From assembly GCA_028824125.1 (NCBI GenBank), contig JAPPES010000126.1, forward strand, positions 1 to 64,000: a DNA stretch of 64,000 nt, read 5' to 3'. A program made the translations under genes and the position numbers. This document shows, piece after piece, positions 6,804 through 51,787 of this stretch (position 1 is the first letter of the stretch; each line of letters begins with the position of its first letter). This DNA is from Candidatus Poribacteria bacterium. Its GTDB lineage: Bacteria > Poribacteria > WGA-4E > WGA-3G. A model generated the notes under the pieces. The model was not told the origin of the DNA and searched no databases. It was given only the letters and a program-made list of their open reading frames with translations.

Positions 6804-8354
6804 ATGCAAAAATTTTTCACAGTCCTCACATTGACATTCTTAATGCTCACATTTTTTGTGTGGGATGCCGCACACGCTGATTGGAACGGTGATGTTGACG
6901 TCGCAAAGTTGAACGAATCAACCGCTAAACGTAAGGCGGATACACAATATGATGTCGTGCGGAATGCCGCTTCCCTATATTCTACGGCAAAATCGGAATA
7001 TGAGGAAAACGAAGCAAAAATAGAAAGAGGGACAACTGTCACCGCTGCCAAACTGTTGGCAGCAACCGTGTCTGTCTATGTAAGCGGCACTCTGTCCGCC
7101 CCCGTAGCCGTGAGTACCCTTGTAGAAATGCTGGACTTATCCGAGGCGATTCAGGATTCAACATCGCTCCTTTCAGCGTATGAAACAGCGATCTCCAGTA
7201 AATTCAACGAGATCGAAGAGTTTGAAATTCTCTCCATAGCGTACACGAACACGTATGACATTTATATTGGGGTGCTCGCTGGACATACAGGGTGGACCGA
7301 ATCCTATCTCTCTACGTACATCGAAAACGAATATAATCGTAGCCAGGGGATAAAACATAAAGGTAGTATTACTCCCAGTAATAAGCATGGGATCGTGGGA
7401 GAAAAAGAATGGGGTCCGTATGATAAATCCCTTCCCTCATACCCTTGCGAGGGTACCTGCACAGAGTCGTTTATGATGCCAACGAGTGATCATGAAATAA
7501 TCTGTGGTGGCCCCGAAGATCCCAGCACCAGTCAGGTCGGAGGATGCTGGGTAAAATACTATTCTTGCGATACTGTAAATGCAGCGGTACACACACCAGG
7601 TCCCTGCGTGACACAGAAGTGGTATCAGGCATGGAATCGGGGTCCTAATGGAGAGTCTGTTTCGGCTTGGGTGCTCCGCGATTGTGGTGATTTCACACGA
7701 ATGTGTTTCCACCACACGGGTGGTCATGCTAGTCCTGCTGAGCCAGGTAACAACAACTTAAGTATGCTGCACACCTTGGAGGCGGCAGAAGAACCTGAAA
7801 CCCCGACACCAGAATCCACACCCGTTGCCGAAACAGACCTTTCTCCTGACTGCGATAGTTGTACAACGGGCGGGTGTTCCAGTTGTCCGATCACAGGTGC
7901 TTGCGGACACACCTATTCACCGAGCGAAGCAAATTCGCACGCCTTACAAGCGAGTTGCTCGATTTCAAATAATTGGATGCGCACTTGCACGGCCACGAAC
8001 TTTTATGCGTGTCAGGGGCATACGTGCGTGTTCCCCACTTTCCAGTGTGGACGGGCAAGTTGTACGCAGGCAGTAGCCGACCCCAACGAACATCGCCGCA
8101 CCTGTATAAACGGCCACAACTATTGGTCGTGTAATACGAGCCCCCTGAACGGAGTGGAGTACCACAAGACTCGCACGTGCACGCGTAGAAAGGTGCTTTA
8201 TAGAAAATGGATCCGACACCTGGGAATTTATAAAGGTATTTCGGGTGTGTGCAATGAGTCCTGGGCGAACTGTGATCGGAGGAGTTGCATGGATGTTTAC
8301 AGGGCGGTGCGAGACCACGAAGAGGGGACGGAGACACCGGTCATACCCGAATGA
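6804..8354 (+). CDS. Large secreted cysteine-rich protein, unknown function
   Basis: A 516-residue protein from the ATG at 6804, preceded by AAAGGAG; an in-frame ATG at 6738 overlaps the preceding gene and lacks a site. A signal peptide covers residues 1-24 (cleavage near AHA). Residues 30-190 are Ala/Ser/Glu-rich and probably helical. The remainder has about 25 cysteines, many in CxxC or CxxxxC spacing (for example CDSC, CSSC), with a Pro/Glu/Thr linker near 330-350. It resembles an extracellular disulfide-bonded or adhesion protein. I recognise no family. It is last in the cassette, followed by a terminator. Confidence 0.8.
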   Translation: MQKFFTVLTLTFLMLTFFVWDAAHADWNGDVDVAKLNESTAKRKADTQYDVVRNAASLYSTAKSEYEENEAKIERGTTVTAAKLLAATVSVYVSGTLSAPVAVSTLVEMLDLSEAIQDSTSLLSAYETAISSKFNEIEEFEILSIAYTNTYDIYIGVLAGHTGWTESYLSTYIENEYNRSQGIKHKGSITPSNKHGIVGEKEWGPYDKSLPSYPCEGTCTESFMMPTSDHEIICGGPEDPSTSQVGGCWVKYYSCDTVNAAVHTPGPCVTQKWYQAWNRGPNGESVSAWVLRDCGDFTRMCFHHTGGHASPAEPGNNNLSMLHTLEAAEEPETPTPESTPVAETDLSPDCDSCTTGGCSSCPITGACGHTYSPSEANSHALQASCSISNNWMRTCTATNFYACQGHTCVFPTFQCGRASCTQAVADPNEHRRTCINGHNYWSCNTSPLNGVEYHKTRTCTRRKVLYRKWIRHLGIYKGISGVCNESWANCDRRSCMDVYRAVRDHEEGTETPVIPE

Positions 8355-8374
8355 ACACAGGTCCGAATGAACAC

Positions 8375-8411
8375 AGGCAGGTATCCTCTTTGGGTATCTG
8401 CCTTTTCTTTT
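8375..8411 (+). terminator. Terminator of the first leader-RNA cassette
   Basis: AGGCAGGTATCC (8375-8386) pairs with GGGTATCTGCCT (8392-8403), followed by TTTTCTTTT. The 3' arm and tail are nearly the same as the terminator at 54590-54631 that ends the second cassette. Confidence 0.85.
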
Positions 8412-8568
8412 GTCTGAATCGCGGAGGATACGGAATTTGCCTTTTGTACCACGGGGAATGCCATTAAGGCGAATGCGCGTATGGCATTCGCCATGATTCA
8501 TACCGTTGATTTTACTTTTAGTTTGCGTTTTGTGGCACAAACTGGAAAGTTTGTGCCACATTTTTATT
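8412..8568. repeat. Palindromic repeat cluster with an invertible-core element
   Basis: An orphan TGTCTGAATC end lies at 8411-8420. At 8452-8512 lies a small palindromic element (CGGGGAAT, 36-base core, ATTCATACCGTTGATTT) whose core at 8460-8495 is in the reverse orientation to the copy at 20531-20590. At 8531-8560 TGTGGCACAAACT and AGTTTGTGCCACA form a perfect 13-base hairpin followed by TTTTTATT, which could terminate transcription. No gene is visible. Confidence 0.75.
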
Positions 8569-44540: not shown

Positions 44541-44606
44541 TCATGGAAATTTGTGCTAAAATAGGTGCATATTAGGGAACTTATCTCATATTTGTATAGG
44601 TGAATA
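44541..44606 (+). repeat. Duplicated upstream segment, copy 1 (before module A1)
   Basis: TTCATGGAAATTTGTGCTAA and the following 45 bases recur at 45562-45627 upstream of the LamG gene, with few differences. It includes a possible promoter (TTGTGT, 17 bases, TAAAAT) ending near 44561. Confidence 0.7.
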
Positions 44607-44608
44607 AT

Positions 44609-45025
44609 ATGGAAACCGGGGAAAAAGAATACAACCTTCCTGTACCGCCAGCAGACAAAGTCTTGTTTCAGAAACAGGTGCAGCACGAATTAGATGAAAT
44701 CCGACAAGAAGCCGAGGAAGCGTGCACCCTGGATAACGAAATTGACCCTGTCCCAGATTCTGCTTACGATGATGTATCTGTTTTGTTAGAGATACTTTGT
44801 AATTACACCCTGCCCATGCCTGAAGTCAGTTGGGCAGAAGATGGCAGTCTTAGTGTTGGATGGTACCCGGATGATGGCATGGTAACAATAGGGATATATG
44901 GAGACCATCTTGTCATCTATAATGCCTTTTTTGAAGAAAAACGTCAATTTGAAGGTATCTGTGAATTATCAGATAGCCCAGTGTTGTCTGGTTTTCTCTC
45001 AACGTTAGAAAATATCCTCGTGTAA
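44609..45025 (+). CDS. Unknown two-gene module, protein A1
   Basis: 138 residues, start ATG at 44609 with AGGTGA just upstream. The protein is acidic and has no signal peptide. It shares with A3 (47052) the blocks PADK[VI]LF, HELDEIR or SELDEIR, a PVP-x-x-AY motif, the PMP segment, a W-x-EDG-x-[LI]-x-[LV] strand, [TI]I-x-[IL]YGD, and a closing G[IV]C-x-LSD. A more distant copy is A2 (46589). B1 starts 14 bases after its stop. No family is recognised. The predicted fold is a helical N-terminus followed by a small beta sheet. Confidence 0.8.
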   Translation: METGEKEYNLPVPPADKVLFQKQVQHELDEIRQEAEEACTLDNEIDPVPDSAYDDVSVLLEILCNYTLPMPEVSWAEDGSLSVGWYPDDGMVTIGIYGDHLVIYNAFFEEKRQFEGICELSDSPVLSGFLSTLENILV

Positions 45026-45039
45026 TAAGGGTTGTTGTT

Positions 45040-45459
45040 ATGAATGTTTCACCGGGTGAGGTACTCACCCGCTTTATTCGTTATAACAGTCATTTTTCCG
45101 TTGTGACTAACAGAGTTAAACCTGATGCTTTTCTTCCGCATAGAAAGCGTATTGATGTATCCGTGTTTTGTATTTCAGGACTCAATGACAGTGCAGAACT
45201 CTCAAAAAACGAGGTATGGCAAATTGGGTGGAAATATGTTCAAACAGAAGAAAGACCGATAAAAGCAAGAGCTGATCTTTTGGCTGCCGTTGTTTATGAG
45301 AATAATCTTGAAGTTGTGTCAGATGAGCCTCCTCAAAAGCACGCGAACATAACGCCTTTTCCTGCAGAGAATAGTCCTACAGATAGAAAAGCGCGAAGAG
45401 CTATCGCAATCAAGCTTGCTGATGCCAGCAAATTAGTTGTTCTACCAGAAAATACCTGA
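45040..45459 (+). CDS. Unknown two-gene module, protein B1
   Basis: 139 residues, the second gene of the A-B pair. It shares with B2 (47481) the blocks RFI....HFS, a KPDAFLPH-like or KYGAFIPP-like segment, SVF[CF][IV]S, [EV]WQIG or EIWEIG, KARADL, VV-x-D-x-x-P and HANITPFP, plus a helical end with ASKL. There is no signal peptide. The strict pairing with A suggests the two proteins act together, perhaps as a complex or a toxin-antitoxin pair. This is inference; neither family is recognised. Confidence 0.8.
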   Translation: MNVSPGEVLTRFIRYNSHFSVVTNRVKPDAFLPHRKRIDVSVFCISGLNDSAELSKNEVWQIGWKYVQTEERPIKARADLLAAVVYENNLEVVSDEPPQKHANITPFPAENSPTDRKARRAIAIKLADASKLVVLPENT

Positions 45460-45561
45460 TTTCAAGTATGGGAAATTGAGAAACACATATAGCCAAGGAA
45501 TTCGCAACAATTGTCCAGGAACTACGGAATTCCTGCAATGTTCTCCGAAATGAAGTATCGC

Positions 45562-45627
45562 TTCATGGAAATTTGTGCTAAAATAAGTGTATATTAGGGA
45601 CTTATCTCAAAGTTGCATAGATGAAAT
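45562..45627 (+). repeat. Duplicated upstream segment, copy 2 (before the LamG gene)
   Basis: Matches 44541-44606 closely. The LamG gene thus has an upstream region copied from the A1 gene, or the other way round. Confidence 0.7.
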
Positions 45628-45635
45628 GGTATAAC
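45627..45635 (+). promoter_or_regulatory. Extended -10 promoter TGGTATAAC for the LamG gene
   Basis: GAAATGGTATAAC, the same string as at 14402-14413. A TATAAT lies shortly after at 45650-45655. The LamG ATG is at 45679 with AAGGAGG. Confidence 0.5.
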
Positions 45636-45678
45636 GTCTCCATTATCTTTATAATTGAAACCTAAGGAGGAATTTAAA

Positions 45679-46500
45679 ATGCGTAATCAACTTATTACAC
45701 TCACACTTTTCACACTTATTGTTACTGTATCTTTCTGCTCTATTGCAGTAGCAAGTTTGGACAAGGGATTAATCGTCTATTATCCATTTGATGAGGCTAA
45801 TGGTGAAACCGCGTCTGATGAGAGTAGAAACGACAACGATGCTACGCTTACCGGTAGTGCCAGTTGGGAACCCAACGGTGGAAAAATTGGTGGGGCATTG
45901 AAACTTGATGGCACCAATAGTTCCGCTGAAGATAACGATGGTGGGGACTACATCAACGGACTTGAGGCTTTTTCTGTTTCCGTTTGGGTTAAATCTGATT
46001 CAGTTGGACATGACCGGGGTATCTTTCACGGTATTGACCCTGGTGGCGGAGACATTGTATTTACACTGCGATACGATTCTGCAAGCTGGGAAGTGAAAGG
46101 GGGAACTAATCTTATCAAAGGCGCCATTACGACAACAGGTGGTGTTCTGCCCTACGAAAGTAAAAGCAATGTGCAAACGACAGAATGGCAACACCTCGTG
46201 TTTGCGTGGCGCAGTGGCGAACAACTTTCACTTTATATTGATGGTACACTTGATGACGATCCGATATTTAATGCTGACGCGAAAAATGGTGAAATTTCTG
46301 GAGCCTCCAAATTTGTCATCGGCAGAGGCGCAAAAGATGGTGCAGCACTTGGATGGACCGGACTTATTGATGATGTTCGTCTTTACAACAGGGTATTAGA
46401 GGAAAACGAAATTGCGGAATTGGCTTCCGGTGTTCTTCCAGTCGAACCGACTGAAAAGTTAGCAACGACTTGGGCAGGCCTTAAGCAAAAACGTGATTAA
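45679..46500 (+). CDS. Secreted LamG-domain protein with C-terminal TTWA/G motif
   Basis: 273 residues from the ATG at 45679, preceded by AAGGAGG. A signal peptide (residues 1-23) is followed by a LamG domain: GLIVYYPFDEANG, GGALKLDGTNS, FSVSVWVKSD, W-QHLVFAWRSG, LYIDG and IDDVRLYNRVL. The end is LPVEPTEKLATTWAGLKQKRD, the tail motif shared with 27768 and 53564. It sits between module A1-B1 and A2, an odd position that suggests insertion into the module cluster. The role is likely surface binding. Confidence 0.9.
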   Translation: MRNQLITLTLFTLIVTVSFCSIAVASLDKGLIVYYPFDEANGETASDESRNDNDATLTGSASWEPNGGKIGGALKLDGTNSSAEDNDGGDYINGLEAFSVSVWVKSDSVGHDRGIFHGIDPGGGDIVFTLRYDSASWEVKGGTNLIKGAITTTGGVLPYESKSNVQTTEWQHLVFAWRSGEQLSLYIDGTLDDDPIFNADAKNGEISGASKFVIGRGAKDGAALGWTGLIDDVRLYNRVLEENEIAELASGVLPVEPTEKLATTWAGLKQKRD

Positions 46501-46588
46501 TCGGTTTGTGTGCCTAAAATAGAGCAGGCGTGTCTTTGCCTGGAAGACCTGGAGGCGCGCCTTGCAAAACAAATAGGTAGGGAGAATT

Positions 46589-46987
46589 ATGCAGTCACAT
46601 TTTGATACCTCATCAACAGATGCGGGTACGTTTCGATACAGTATTAAACGTGAATTAGCGGAACTTTACGGAAAGGCTGAGGAAGACTGGACGCTGGATA
46701 GCGAAATTGATGTTATCCCAGAGGCAGCATGCAATGACGCTCTTTTTTTGCTTGAATTTCTTTTTAATTCGGGTGTTCCCATGCCAAACATCAATCGGAC
46801 AGCACACGGTAACCTTAGTTTTAACTGGTATCCAGAAGAAGGCACAGCGACAATGGAACTCTGTGGTGATGGGCTTGTTGTCTACAACGCTTTTTTTGAT
46901 GAAGATCGTCAAGATGAGGGTGCTTGTGTCTTGACAGACAGCGCTGCGCTTGATGAACTTTTGGGCGCGTTGCGCTGCGTTTATTAA
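46589..46987 (+). CDS. Unknown two-gene module, protein A2 (no B partner)
   Basis: 132 residues, start with AGGGAG upstream. It is a diverged relative of A1 and A3: ELAELYGKAEEDW, DSEIDVIPEAA, VPMPNI, FNWYPEEGTATMELCGDGLVVYNAFFDE and G-A-C-V-LTDS. It lacks the PADK segment. No B gene follows; the next gene is A3. It may be a free-standing or decaying copy. Confidence 0.75.
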   Translation: MQSHFDTSSTDAGTFRYSIKRELAELYGKAEEDWTLDSEIDVIPEAACNDALFLLEFLFNSGVPMPNINRTAHGNLSFNWYPEEGTATMELCGDGLVVYNAFFDEDRQDEGACVLTDSAALDELLGALRCVY

Positions 46988-47051
46988 CAATAGAATTTTA
47001 TTACAAAATGCTGTTATTGAGAATTATTTCTATTTATATGGGGCATACATC

Positions 47052-47477
47052 ATGGCAACCGTACAAAACGAACTTGATTTTGATTTTGCTCGGTCCCCTG
47101 CTGACAAGATACTGTTTCTAAAACATGTCCAAAGCGAATTAGACGAAATTCGTGAGGAAGTTGAAGAGACTTGTGCAGTGGTTTCCGAAGTTGAACCTGT
47201 CCCAGAACAGGCTTATAATGATACTTTATCTCTAATGGAACAGATCTCTCATGGCATACCAATGCCTGATTTGATGTGGTTGGAAGATGGGGGTATTGGA
47301 TTAGAATGGAGACCCGGCGAAGGTATTGCAACAATAAGTCTATATGGTGATGGAAACGTTATTTGCGGTGTTTTTTTTAGTGACAAGTGTGAAGTTGACG
47401 GAATTTGTTCCTTGTCAGACTATGCCCTTCTCCAAGGGTTCCTTACGACGTTAAGTCTACTTTTCAATAAAGGATAA
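47052..47477 (+). CDS. Unknown two-gene module, protein A3
   Basis: 141 residues. Start chosen at 47052 because homology with A1 begins just after it; the longer frame from 46950 overlaps A2. The blocks SPADKILFLKHVQSELDEIREE, PVPEQAY, IPMPDLMW, EDGGIGLEWRPGEG and ATISLYGDG match A1. B2 starts three bases after its stop, and AAAGGATAAGG across the junction serves as B2's binding site. Confidence 0.8.
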   Translation: MATVQNELDFDFARSPADKILFLKHVQSELDEIREEVEETCAVVSEVEPVPEQAYNDTLSLMEQISHGIPMPDLMWLEDGGIGLEWRPGEGIATISLYGDGNVICGVFFSDKCEVDGICSLSDYALLQGFLTTLSLLFNKG

Positions 47478-47480
47478 GGT

Positions 47481-47885
47481 ATGGATTTATCGGGAGGCGA
47501 TATTCTTAGTCGCTTCATTTTTTCTAAAAGACATTTTTCAATAGAAAATAGGACTGTCAAATATGGTGCATTTATTCCACCTCCAAATAGTGCTGATTTA
47601 TCTGTGTTTTTTGTTTCATCCCTTACTCACAGCGAAATATGGGAAATCGGACGTGGATATGTCCAAACGGATGAGAGAAAACTGAAGGCAAGAGCCGACC
47701 TTACTGTGGAAAATGTTTATGCTGTTAATCTAAAAGTTGTCCCAGATACTCAACCTCACGAACTTCATGCCAATATCACACCTTTTCCATTAGACAAAAG
47801 AGAACGTGCTGCCCTTGCAAGAAAACTTGCAGTAGCGAGTAAGTTGGAAATGATTCCATCACAAGATACTGATTCAGATTCATAA
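47481..47885 (+). CDS. Unknown two-gene module, protein B2
   Basis: 134 residues, paralogue of B1. Conserved: RFIFSKRHFSIENR, YGAFIPP, LSVFFVSSL, EIWEIGRGYVQTDER, KARADL, LKVVPDTQP, HANITPFP, LARKLAVASKLEMIP. It is tightly coupled to A3. There is no signal peptide and no known catalytic motif. Confidence 0.8.
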   Translation: MDLSGGDILSRFIFSKRHFSIENRTVKYGAFIPPPNSADLSVFFVSSLTHSEIWEIGRGYVQTDERKLKARADLTVENVYAVNLKVVPDTQPHELHANITPFPLDKRERAALARKLAVASKLEMIPSQDTDSDS

Positions 47886-47977: not shown

Positions 47978-50434
47978 ATGACAAGTGATGCACACGCTGT
48001 CAAAGCGCACTTACCTGAAAATATGATAGAGATTCTTGAAAACATTCTCGGTTGCAAACTTGAAGATGTAACTACGGGAATGGATTTTAACCCTGATACC
48101 TTAGGAACCTTCCTTAATTCACTCCCCACAGACTCCCTTGAAAACTACCTTTCACCACAATGGGTAGTACTTGCTGCGGGGAAAGGCACACGAATTGATC
48201 CGACAGGCCGCTTGAGCAAAACGTTGGATATTATGTTCGGTGAGCAAAACATGCTGCAAAGGTCATGTCGTTTTCTGCCGGGTAACCGTTCGCATGTTGT
48301 TGTTATCAATCCGCAGATAGCAACCAGAATTTCAGAAAGTGAATCACCTGAACAATGGTTAGGTGCTGATGCTATTCCTTGTATTCAAGAAGAGATGAAC
48401 GGCACAGGCGGTGCGTTGCAAGCAGCTTTATCAGAACTTCGAAAATCAGACGCAGAGTGGGTTGGCGTAGCATTCGGTGATGAACCGTTTTTGGAAAAAG
48501 TTATTTTTGCACAAACATTATTATCCCATTTACTCTCTAATGCGGATGTTACATTGTGTGGCAAGGTCCCTGAAACAGTTGTGGATAAAGGCGGTCTCTT
48601 CTTTGGCGCAGATGGTCAATTTATTGGCACAACAGAGTGGTACGATATGACAGGCGCGGAAAAAGCGGAGATGTGGCAACGTTTGGAGCGCGGCGAGGCA
48701 TATACCAATACCGGTATCACAATCATACGAAAAAGTGCGTTATTGGAACGGATAGATCGATTGCAACCGCACACAAACCGAAACGGTGAACTCCATCACG
48801 TTGATCTGATTCACCTCTGTTATGAAGATGGACTAAAAACAAACGCATTTATCTATCGTGGTGATGTGTTGTCAGGGGTCAATCGTTGGTCAAACGTATT
48901 ATTAGGTGAAGATGCAATGTTTAAAAAAAACAGAGAATTTCTTGCCAGCAAAGGCATTCGTGTTGATCCAGCAGCACAGATAACGTTGGACAGTGAAGAT
49001 GTTGAAATCGGCACCGCATGTTATCTTATTGGCAGGATACATATAGGCAAAGATGTCAAGATAGGGGATTACTGTAGGCTTGAAAATGCTACGCTGCGCG
49101 GAGCAACGTGCGTTGGAAACTCAGTTGGCCTGCAGAATGTGTCTGCTGTGGACACGACATTTGAATCAAATCAGTTGCCAACGACTTTGGCAGAACCTGT
49201 TAGTGGGATTGCAACTGTAAGCAGAATAAAAAATTACACTTTTGATGCTGTTACAGTAGGAAGCAGCGTTCAGCTATCAGATGTTCAAGCACATGCAACA
49301 GTAATTCCATCTAATATTAGATTGGAAAATCAAACGTTAGGTGTTCCGCGTACTGAATCTCCATTGGGTGTACCGAGTTCGCTTTTCAATCAAATTGTTC
49401 CCGCAGATTATAGACCAGGTATATATACCTTTGGTGAGAAAAAAGATTTGCCAGATTGGGACAACCTTCGTGAACATGTGCGTTCACATAGTGCTACAGA
49501 ATTGATACCCCGCGCAACGCGCAACGCGCAATTGCAACAGGTTGTGTGCAATGCCGTAGATATGCTCTTAGATATGCGGCGTGCAAATGGAGATTATCTG
49601 ATTGAAGCACTTACGCCTGAAGAACTTTGGGGAACCATTTTTGAGATGGTGAAACTGCATACCGGCAACCCGAATCCTTATTATCAAGATAAACTAAAGG
49701 CACGCCGGACTGCACTTGAGCTTCTGCCAGAGTTTTGGGACGAAAATTGGTTGACGCGGTTAAAACTTGTTGTCGCAGGGAACGTAATTGATTACAGCAG
49801 CGCGCGGGTCGTCCAAAAAGTGAACGCTAATCCTGATTACTTTTCTCAAGCACTACGTGCTGCGGTTAAAACACCTTTTGCTATTGATTGTTATGAACTG
49901 TTTCGAAAAAAAGTGATTGATCCCCCCTCTCAGCATATTGTATGGCTTGCAGACAACGATGGCGAAATCATTTTTGATATTGCCTTCATTCAGGATATTG
50001 TTAGATGTGGACATAGATTATGTATTGTAGGAAAAGCCGACAACGCAAGCAATGACGTTACGCTTGCAGATTTGCATGATATTACAAAATATCCGCAATT
50101 TGAAGAACTTCAGCGCGCCATTCAGGACGGTGTTGTTACGCTGATGTCGTCAGGTGCAAAGACGATCGGGACAAATCTCTATAATGCTACACCCGAATTT
50201 ATTAACGCGCTATTAGATGCTGACCTTGTTATATCAAAAGGGCAAGGTAATTTCTTCACGACACCAGGATGGCATAAAGATACCTTTTATCTCCTACTCT
50301 CAAAAGGTATGACTGCTGAACGAAGCACAGGTGTTATAGCGAATAGAGATATGCCTATTGACGGACTGATTTTGGGGTATCTACCAGCTGGAACAAAACG
50401 GGATGCACCGTTATGCGATCTATGTAACCTTTGA
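47978..50434 (+). CDS. Fusion of GlmU-type sugar nucleotidyltransferase and DUF89 phosphatase
   Basis: 818 residues. Residues 61-330 form a nucleotidyltransferase with LAAGKGTRIDPTGRLSKTL (the LxxGxGtrl-K signature), EMNGTGGALQAAL and a late VDL segment. Residues 335-420 are hexapeptide-type beta-helix (IGTACYLIGRIHIGKDVKIGDY). Residues about 490-818 are a DUF89/ARMT1-like metal-dependent phosphatase with DNDGE at 659-663 and SKGQGNF at 753-759. DUF89 proteins are damage-control phosphatases on sugar phosphates in yeast and humans. A fusion of the two is unfamiliar to me. It implies a sugar-phosphate pathway with built-in clean-up. Cytoplasmic. Confidence 0.88.
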   Translation: MTSDAHAVKAHLPENMIEILENILGCKLEDVTTGMDFNPDTLGTFLNSLPTDSLENYLSPQWVVLAAGKGTRIDPTGRLSKTLDIMFGEQNMLQRSCRFLPGNRSHVVVINPQIATRISESESPEQWLGADAIPCIQEEMNGTGGALQAALSELRKSDAEWVGVAFGDEPFLEKVIFAQTLLSHLLSNADVTLCGKVPETVVDKGGLFFGADGQFIGTTEWYDMTGAEKAEMWQRLERGEAYTNTGITIIRKSALLERIDRLQPHTNRNGELHHVDLIHLCYEDGLKTNAFIYRGDVLSGVNRWSNVLLGEDAMFKKNREFLASKGIRVDPAAQITLDSEDVEIGTACYLIGRIHIGKDVKIGDYCRLENATLRGATCVGNSVGLQNVSAVDTTFESNQLPTTLAEPVSGIATVSRIKNYTFDAVTVGSSVQLSDVQAHATVIPSNIRLENQTLGVPRTESPLGVPSSLFNQIVPADYRPGIYTFGEKKDLPDWDNLREHVRSHSATELIPRATRNAQLQQVVCNAVDMLLDMRRANGDYLIEALTPEELWGTIFEMVKLHTGNPNPYYQDKLKARRTALELLPEFWDENWLTRLKLVVAGNVIDYSSARVVQKVNANPDYFSQALRAAVKTPFAIDCYELFRKKVIDPPSQHIVWLADNDGEIIFDIAFIQDIVRCGHRLCIVGKADNASNDVTLADLHDITKYPQFEELQRAIQDGVVTLMSSGAKTIGTNLYNATPEFINALLDADLVISKGQGNFFTTPGWHKDTFYLLLSKGMTAERSTGVIANRDMPIDGLILGYLPAGTKRDAPLCDLCNL

Positions 50435-51787
50435 AATTGTGAATTCTCTTTTTCCCGACTTTGGAAGTGGAATTTCATCCACAAATTCTATTTTTATAGA
50501 TATTTCTGCACCGAGCGCATCTTGGATTTTCTGGACGATATAATTACCTGTTTCCGCTGTCCACTGCTCGTTAATAACGAGTTTTAAAATACACTTTTCA
50601 AGTGTTTCCTGAATTAATTGAAATTGGTTTACACCAACGAGGTTATAGAACTGTTGTGTGAAATAACCTCCGTGTATCAACGTCTTCGTTTTTGTTCGGA
50701 AAGTTGCTGTGCTGCGCCCCAGAAGTTCTCCTAAAATGGGCAATTGATTGCCGCATGAACACACCTCGTCAGAGAGACGACCAATATCGCCAATCCGATA
50801 GCGGACAAACGGCATTATGTAGTTGTTCAATTGTGTAACGAGTAGATCGCCCGGTTTGGTATAGGGATCCTCACTGTCCACCTCAAGGTAAATATCTCTG
50901 CAGTTGATATGCATGCGTCCTTCTGCACATTCCATAGCAATTAATCCGACTTCCCGCCCACCATATCGGTTATAAATCTTTGTGTCAAAGACCGTTTCTG
51001 CAATTGAGCGGTAATGTGGGTGTAGCATCTCCGCAGATGAAATAATCCCTTTAATATCCCATTGTGGAGTTAATTTGTTCTCAGAGATAAATTTCGCAAA
51101 TTGATATAGCGATGAGGGATAGGCGAGAATTGTCTTAGGTCGCCACCTTTGCATTTTCAGAAAGGTATTGTGCATCGCTGAATCTGTTAAGTGGAATCCG
51201 TTTAGCCAGTGCTGATTTCGCCAATAACGGTTTAGGTACTGTTTCCAATTACCATCACTGTTGACATCAGCGGGTGCTCCCCAAATGATTAGCTGCGGTT
51301 CACCAAAATCCCACCCTGCCCATCGGTCAAAGTAATAGACGCTAAGATTCCGTTGATTCCAATAGGTTCTATCCTGATAAAACTTCAGTGGTGTACCTGT
51401 AGAACCGCCTGTCGCATTCTCAATTCGCTGATAGGTTGGAAATAGTTCAGAACAGAGATTTTCCAGTTGTTTTCGGATAGTCTGTTTTTCGAGTGGTAGA
51501 ATTTTTGATATGTCGATGGAATCAGCATTAATTTCTCGAAGCAAGTCACTTAGCTTTAATCCAAAATCTTTAAACAGATCGCGATAATATGGTGTCGTAC
51601 GGGCAGCATGTTGAATAAGTTGTTTCAGGCGTTCCCGCTGAAACTTTAAAATCGTTTCACGCGGCGCGTTGAACAATTCAGTTGTTTTGGATAGTTGGGA
51701 ACGGAAGAAAACACCTTTCCGATGTGTATTGTAGGCGTGCCATGCCGCTTTTGAAAATAGGGTTTTGACTGAACGACTAATTGACAT
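50420..51787 (-). CDS. PaaK/CapK-like AMP-forming ligase
   Basis: 455 residues, adenylate-forming family. ATGGSTGTPLKFYQD near residue 125 is the P-loop-like AMP motif. YNRYGGREVGLIAMEC (about 273) and NYIMPFVRYRIGDIG (about 320) are other core motifs, with a small C-terminal domain after GRSTATF. The CapK group is found in capsule and exopolysaccharide loci, where its substrate is unclear. It is convergent with the GlmU-DUF89 gene, overlapping it by 15 bases. Confidence 0.88.
   Translation of the reverse strand: MSISRSVKTLFSKAAWHAYNTHRKGVFFRSQLSKTTELFNAPRETILKFQRERLKQLIQHAARTTPYYRDLFKDFGLKLSDLLREINADSIDISKILPLEKQTIRKQLENLCSELFPTYQRIENATGGSTGTPLKFYQDRTYWNQRNLSVYYFDRWAGWDFGEPQLIIWGAPADVNSDGNWKQYLNRYWRNQHWLNGFHLTDSAMHNTFLKMQRWRPKTILAYPSSLYQFAKFISENKLTPQWDIKGIISSAEMLHPHYRSIAETVFDTKIYNRYGGREVGLIAMECAEGRMHINCRDIYLEVDSEDPYTKPGDLLVTQLNNYIMPFVRYRIGDIGRLSDEVCSCGNQLPILGELLGRSTATFRTKTKTLIHGGYFTQQFYNLVGVNQFQLIQETLEKCILKLVINEQWTAETGNYIVQKIQDALGAEISIKIEFVDEIPLPKSGKREFTISKVT

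Follow-up and report, generated by a model that had tools for sequence, protein, structure and literature searches.

A nucleotidyltransferase-DUF89 fusion conserved across a class of Poribacteria as a candidate enzyme of UDP-GlcNAc synthesis

Introduction

Peptidoglycan and lipid A are both built from UDP-GlcNAc, an essential precursor whose standard bacterial source, GlmU, is a drug target. Poribacteria are a major group of uncultured sponge symbionts. We analyzed the first 64,000 nucleotides of a contig from a 5.6 Mb Candidatus Poribacteria genome (JAPPES010000126.1; this whole stretch is referred to below as the window), in which one gene appears to join a GlmU-like nucleotidyltransferase (NTase) to a DUF89 phosphatase. 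To our knowledge, the substrates of the DUF89 family are mostly unknown. The locus thus raises two questions: whether the fusion is real, and what a nucleotide-sugar enzyme and a phosphatase would be doing on the same chain.

Architecture of the Fusion Protein

The gene at 47978-50434 (+ strand) translates as one intact frame of 818 amino acids with zero internal stops. The initial sequence-only reading had described an NTase, a beta-helix, and a DUF89 domain within this single frame, and that architecture was borne out, the beta-helix being its least certain part. The NTase domain (residues about 60-325; 48158-48952, +) was recovered by Pfam, NCBIfam, and PDB matches as well as by Foldseek and hhalign. 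It is followed by a short hexapeptide/left-handed beta-helix stretch (residues about 325-455; 48950-49342, +), which has a weak hexapeptide match in Pfam and mostly low pLDDT, and by a DUF89/ARMT1-like domain (residues about 465-818; 49370-50431, +) identified from PF01937, pLDDT, and Foldseek. Comparison with PDB sequences gave a clean split, with residues 62-383 matching GlmU and residues 551-776 matching PH1575 (2g8l). The AlphaFold2 model has a mean pLDDT of 81.8; most residues score about 80-95 in region 60-320, 36-60 in region 320-440, and at least about 90 in region 465-818. A Foldseek search of the PDB with this model recovered both folds: the first 37 matches were all GlmU except two chains of the DUF89 protein 2g8l.

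Distribution of the Fusion

The fusion was detected in 78 of the 85 Poribacteria genomes searched, all 78 belonging to the 83 members of one class; in four of the 78 it is represented by contig-edge pieces only. At its lowest, in the most divergent family, identity to the window protein is 39-43%. The fusion was not matched in five members of the class, of which four are 73-81% complete and one (G016) is 96% complete, and the two Poribacteria genomes outside the class carry a standalone DUF89 only. The fusion seemed to be broken in two in G019 and G020, a reading that was rejected when ORF extraction yielded single frames of 871 and 888 amino acids with insertions; the break in G054 falls at contig ends. 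It had been considered at the outset that the fusion might be confined to this contig and caused by an assembly error, but such an artefact or chance joining is effectively excluded by orthologues of identical architecture and similar length in so many independent assemblies, including single-contig genomes. The fusion is fixed class-wide.

Outside the phylum, the fusion was found in none of about 300 sampled genomes, a sample rather than all species, and the best matches were to DUF89 alone. The contig-wide scan, with the window protein (P0001) as its sole query, extends to close relatives only. A search of plasmids returned GlmU and DUF89 matches only as separate entries, and in the flanks examined in 16 genomes outside the phylum no DUF89 gene was found beside GlmM, YvcK, NagB, or an NTase.

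The N-Terminal Nucleotidyltransferase

Residues 63-192 match PF12804 (E 1.4e-9), and the top NCBIfam match of the N-terminal half is GlmU (TIGR01173; residues 63-386, 86.1 bits, E 2.2e-24). This score lies far under the curated cut-off of 366.85 bits, which identifies the domain as a non-canonical GlmU homologue. When a profile of 21 fusions was aligned with E. coli GlmU using hhalign, a probability of 98.6% was obtained and GlmU residues 9-320 were covered. The window protein is identical to E. coli GlmU at positions 14-18, K25, Q76, G81, T82, D105, G140, E154, N169, and N227; R18, K25, Q76, G81, and D105 correspond to R72, K81, Q137, G142, and D168 of the fusion, and G140, E154, N169, and N227 to G206, E220, N244, and N302. 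In an alignment of 40 fusions, every column of the uridylyltransferase site is either invariant or conserved to at least 90%. In GlmU itself, these residues are known to bind UTP/Mg2+ and the sugar.

The acetyltransferase half of GlmU was not found in the fusion. The hhalign alignment stops at E. coli residue 320, leaving no counterparts of R333, K351, and H363, and Y366 also lies outside it. Judged by these alignments, the N-terminal domain is most likely a monofunctional GlmU-type uridylyltransferase.

UDP-GlcNAc Synthesis in Poribacteria

No frame exceeded the TIGR01173 cut-off for GlmU in any of 13 Poribacteria genomes tested, and the fusion was the top GlmU-scoring frame in nine (G000, G009, G020, G024, G044, G037, G036, G057, and G050). 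MurA was above its cut-off in all 13. The window's own genome also contains a 436-aa frame similar to an LpxC-FabZ fusion and, after it, an LpxA-like one (L144:1205-3414), so that, with MurA also present, UDP-GlcNAc is presumably needed. The presence of MurA in all 13 genomes, the lack of a canonical GlmU, and the rank of the fusion among GlmU matches together make it most likely the UDP-GlcNAc pyrophosphorylase. The class otherwise seems to lack such an enzyme, for which the fusion is the best candidate.

Other candidates were less convincing. A UAP1-type pyrophosphorylase (PF01704) was found in G036 only. The GlmU profile also hit a 276-aa hexapeptide protein, which is LpxA-like and lies directly 3' of the LpxC/FabZ-like frame. 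A 455-aa GlmU-like protein in the window's own genome (C146; L149:2924-4288) scores 201 bits against archaeal-type GlmU, under the cut-off of 292, and carries an altered first NTase motif (LAAGLGRKVWP), making it a poor uridylyltransferase candidate. From its sequence it is a possible candidate for the missing GlcN-1-P acetyltransferase, and GlmU-like frames of about 455 amino acids are also present in other genomes.

Two further observations bear on the source of UDP-GlcNAc. The outgroup families f9 and f10 (G060 and G061) lack the fusion as well as a canonical GlmU, and another enzyme evidently can serve there. In addition, class Poribacteria encode YvcK. The Listeria homolog, YvcK/GlmR, produces UDP-GlcNAc itself (PMC10128056), and the Bacillus homolog regulates UDP-GlcNAc synthesis and carbon partition into peptidoglycan (PMC6171935).

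Among the 13 genomes, G036 and G044 alone have a GlmS above its cut-off, and they are also the only two in which NagB is missing. This complementary pattern suggests that GlcN-6-P is NagB-dependent or salvaged in most Poribacteria. In Akkermansia, which likewise has no GlmS, NagB is not usable synthetically and external GlcNAc is required (PMC5902328). For Poribacteria, the amino sugar may come from the sponge.

Gene Neighborhood

An amino-sugar cluster surrounds the fusion in two families, f5 and f7. Loci L056 and L059 show the order histidine kinase, response regulator, GlgC-like, GlmM, YvcK, fusion, and NagB, with partial versions of this order in L058, L060, L063/L065, and L066; in L062 the order is GlmM, YvcK, fusion, and NagA. 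The archaeal-type GlmM (phosphoglucosamine mutase), the UDP-GlcNAc-binding YvcK, NagB, and NagA all scored above their NCBIfam cut-offs. In L056, L058, and L059, yvcK and the fusion overlap, sharing 4-8 bases where the former ends and the latter starts. No conserved pathway neighbors were observed at the fusion in the window's own family; in this genome and others of families f1-f4 the GlmM-YvcK pair sits apart from the fusion, and in G044 it is followed by GlmS.

The C-Terminal DUF89 Domain

The assignment of the C-terminal part to DUF89 was confirmed by a PF01937 match at residues 553-759 (E 1e-32, 114.1 bits, gathering cut-off 25) and by fold similarity to 2g8l (TM 0.80) and 2ffj (TM 0.78), both normalized by target length. 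The motifs DNDGE at 659 and SKGQGNF at 753, located correctly from the sequence at the start, correspond to D659-E663 (49952-49966, +) and S753-K-G-Q-G-N-F. The former is the metal-binding motif, equivalent to DNVGE of PH1575; the latter contains the phosphate-site motif K754-N758 (50237-50251, +), equivalent to KGQGN of PH1575. Together with N692-D693 (50051-50056, +), equivalent to ND of PH1575, these motifs show no variation among the 40 aligned fusions.

The domain also departs from its relatives. The N-terminal CxxC module is found in none of the fusions, compared with 18 of 20 aligned standalone DUF89 proteins, the remaining two being sequences read from a start further in. The cysteine of the C-terminal KC motif is likewise absent from every fusion and present in 20 of 20 standalone proteins. 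The 19 fused domains included in a tree form one clade on a long branch (SH-aLRT 99), a topology compatible with a single origin. The cysteine loss and the long branch would fit a new phosphatase specificity, one of the two possibilities raised initially. A DUF89 domain within a frame of more than 3100 amino acids, likewise without the KC cysteine, was observed outside the phylum (L159, about 7679-8434, G311).

In two genomes, G051 and G052 (L061 and L062), the fused DUF89 domain is shortened and DNxGE and KGQGN are gone, with the NTase motifs kept; G051 additionally encodes a separate canonical DUF89. The two activities are thus not strictly coupled. The other initial proposal, a direct link between synthesis and metabolite repair, stands only in part: the link to nucleotide-sugar synthesis is strongly supported by the gene cluster and the lack of a canonical GlmU, and strict coupling is contradicted by these two genomes. 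Metabolite repair is a plausible role for the fused domain. DUF89 proteins are metal-dependent phosphatases acting on sugar phosphates and other metabolites (PMC8669784).

Proposed Function

The explanation that we favor, with confidence evenly balanced, is that the fusion is a bifunctional enzyme of amino-sugar activation combining a UDP-GlcNAc pyrophosphorylase with a DUF89 phosphatase that clears sugar phosphates. The N-terminal domain would convert UTP and GlcNAc-1-phosphate (or GlcN-1-phosphate) to UDP-GlcNAc, in place of the uridylyltransferase half of the GlmU that these genomes seem to lack. The C-terminal domain, a metal-dependent phosphatase judging by its motifs, would act from the same chain on hexose- or hexosamine-phosphates at the same node, be they side products, wrong isomers, or excess. 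Such clearing may keep sugar phosphates from blocking the pathway or from turning into wrong nucleotide sugars. For the NTase, the predicted site residues, the gene cluster, and the lack of alternatives give good support to a link with nucleotide-sugar synthesis. A phosphatase function of the C-terminal half is most likely, given its intact motifs and the known activity of DUF89 proteins on sugar phosphates.

This explanation has several weak points. YvcK could be the source of UDP-GlcNAc, and the GlmU score of the NTase is far under the cut-off. The outgroup manages without the fusion or GlmU, the fusion is not beside glmM-yvcK in the window's own family, and the DUF89 site has been lost in G051 and G052. 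Acetylation would have to fall to another protein, for which the 455-aa archaeal-GlmU-like protein is a candidate. A more far-reaching form of the proposal is tentative, and we regard it as improbable in full: the class would have rebuilt UDP-GlcNAc synthesis without GlmU and mostly without GlmS, its sole pyrophosphorylase carrying a cysteine-free, hexosamine-phosphate-specific DUF89 that joins synthesis with clearance or flux control.

Fused enzymes often perform successive steps, and the two domains may do so here. In heptose synthesis, a separate phosphatase (GmhB) and nucleotidyltransferase (HddC) carry out the order sugar bisphosphate, sugar-1-phosphate, NDP-sugar. The NTase of the fusion could similarly use another sugar-1-phosphate prepared by the DUF89 domain as the preceding biosynthetic phosphatase, leaving UDP-GlcNAc to YvcK/GlmR or another NTase. 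The low GlmU score is in keeping with this, as are the presence of further NTases in the genome and the ability of GlmR to make UDP-GlcNAc (PMC10128056). However, the residues of the GlmU uridylyltransferase site are retained, and the cluster consists of GlmM, NagB or NagA, and YvcK, with no bisphosphate-forming kinase. Moreover, the two genomes without the DUF89 site keep the NTase, which would be impossible for a required step unless another phosphatase substitutes. We consider consecutive catalysis unlikely.

The DUF89 domain could instead be mainly regulatory or structural, catalyzing little by itself and serving, for example, as a sugar-phosphate sensor or an oligomerization part of the uridylyltransferase. 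In favor of this, the CxxC and KC cysteines are lost, the branch is long, and in G051 and G052 the catalytic motifs have decayed beside an intact NTase. However, the invariance of D659-E663, N692-D693, and K754-N758 in 40 of 40 aligned fusions indicates that catalysis, or at a minimum the binding of metal and phosphate, has been selected for, and a mainly non-catalytic role is unlikely as well.

Alternatively, the phosphatase half may drain the pathway, hydrolyzing GlcNAc-1-P, GlcN-6-P, or GlcNAc-6-P when UDP-GlcNAc is high, so that one chain, with NagA/NagB and YvcK, would balance synthesis against the return of carbon. A UDP-GlcNAc-binding regulator and a deaminase are indeed neighbors of the fusion, and Bacillus GlmR controls carbon partition into peptidoglycan (PMC6171935). 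A two-way enzyme would, however, waste substrate unless tightly controlled, and we find a drain doubtful, the least probable of these roles.

Comparison with Known Systems

The fusion resembles GlmU (TIGR01173; PDB 9dqf, 2qkx, 2oi6) in its NTase fold, its uridylyltransferase-site residues, and the beginning of a left-handed beta-helix. GlmU is a bifunctional pyrophosphorylase/GlcN-1-P acetyltransferase, whereas the fusion has DUF89 where the acetyltransferase half would be. With standalone prokaryotic DUF89 proteins (PF01937; PH1575, 2g8l; AF1104, 2ffj) it shares the core fold and the DNxGE, ND, and KGQGN motifs; the domain described here differs in being always fused, in having neither CxxC nor the KC cysteine, and in forming its own long-branched clade. 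YvcK/GlmR acts in the same pathway, as a UDP-GlcNAc-binding protein and accessory uridylyltransferase, and adjoins the fusion in two families, but it belongs to the CofD family and could compete for the part of uridylyltransferase. A parallel in design is the eukaryotic PANK4-type PanK-DUF89 fusion, likened here by description and not by sequence, which also places a biosynthetic enzyme and a DUF89 phosphatase on one chain (PMC4921024, PMC8669784). There the pathway is that of CoA and the partner a kinase; here they are nucleotide-sugar synthesis and a nucleotidyltransferase. A DUF89 fusion has earlier revealed a pathway partner, in CoA synthesis (PMC4921024).

If the fusion is the source of UDP-GlcNAc, a metabolic gap of Poribacteria would be filled and a damage-control phosphatase would be tied to a defined pathway. 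It would also provide a short list of substrates for the DUF89 family, as the PanK-DUF89 fusion did for CoA. Both domains belong to known families; what may be new is their combination, its class-wide fixation, and the cysteine-free type of DUF89. No paper naming DUF89 with GlmU was found in the literature searched, which leaves out most subscription journals.

Other Genes near the Fusion

Upstream of the fusion (44600-47882 of the window), two families of small frames occur in tandem repeats, one at 44600-45022, 46577-46984, and 46935-47474 and the other at 44977-45456 and 47478-47882. They gave no Pfam matches, and the same small frames were observed near the fusion in several related loci. 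On the opposite strand, a convergent frame of 455 amino acids (50420-51787, -) shares 15 bases with the 3' end of the fusion. It gave no Pfam match at E 0.01, appears CapK/phenylacetate-CoA-ligase-like by eye, and has homologues in eight related loci.
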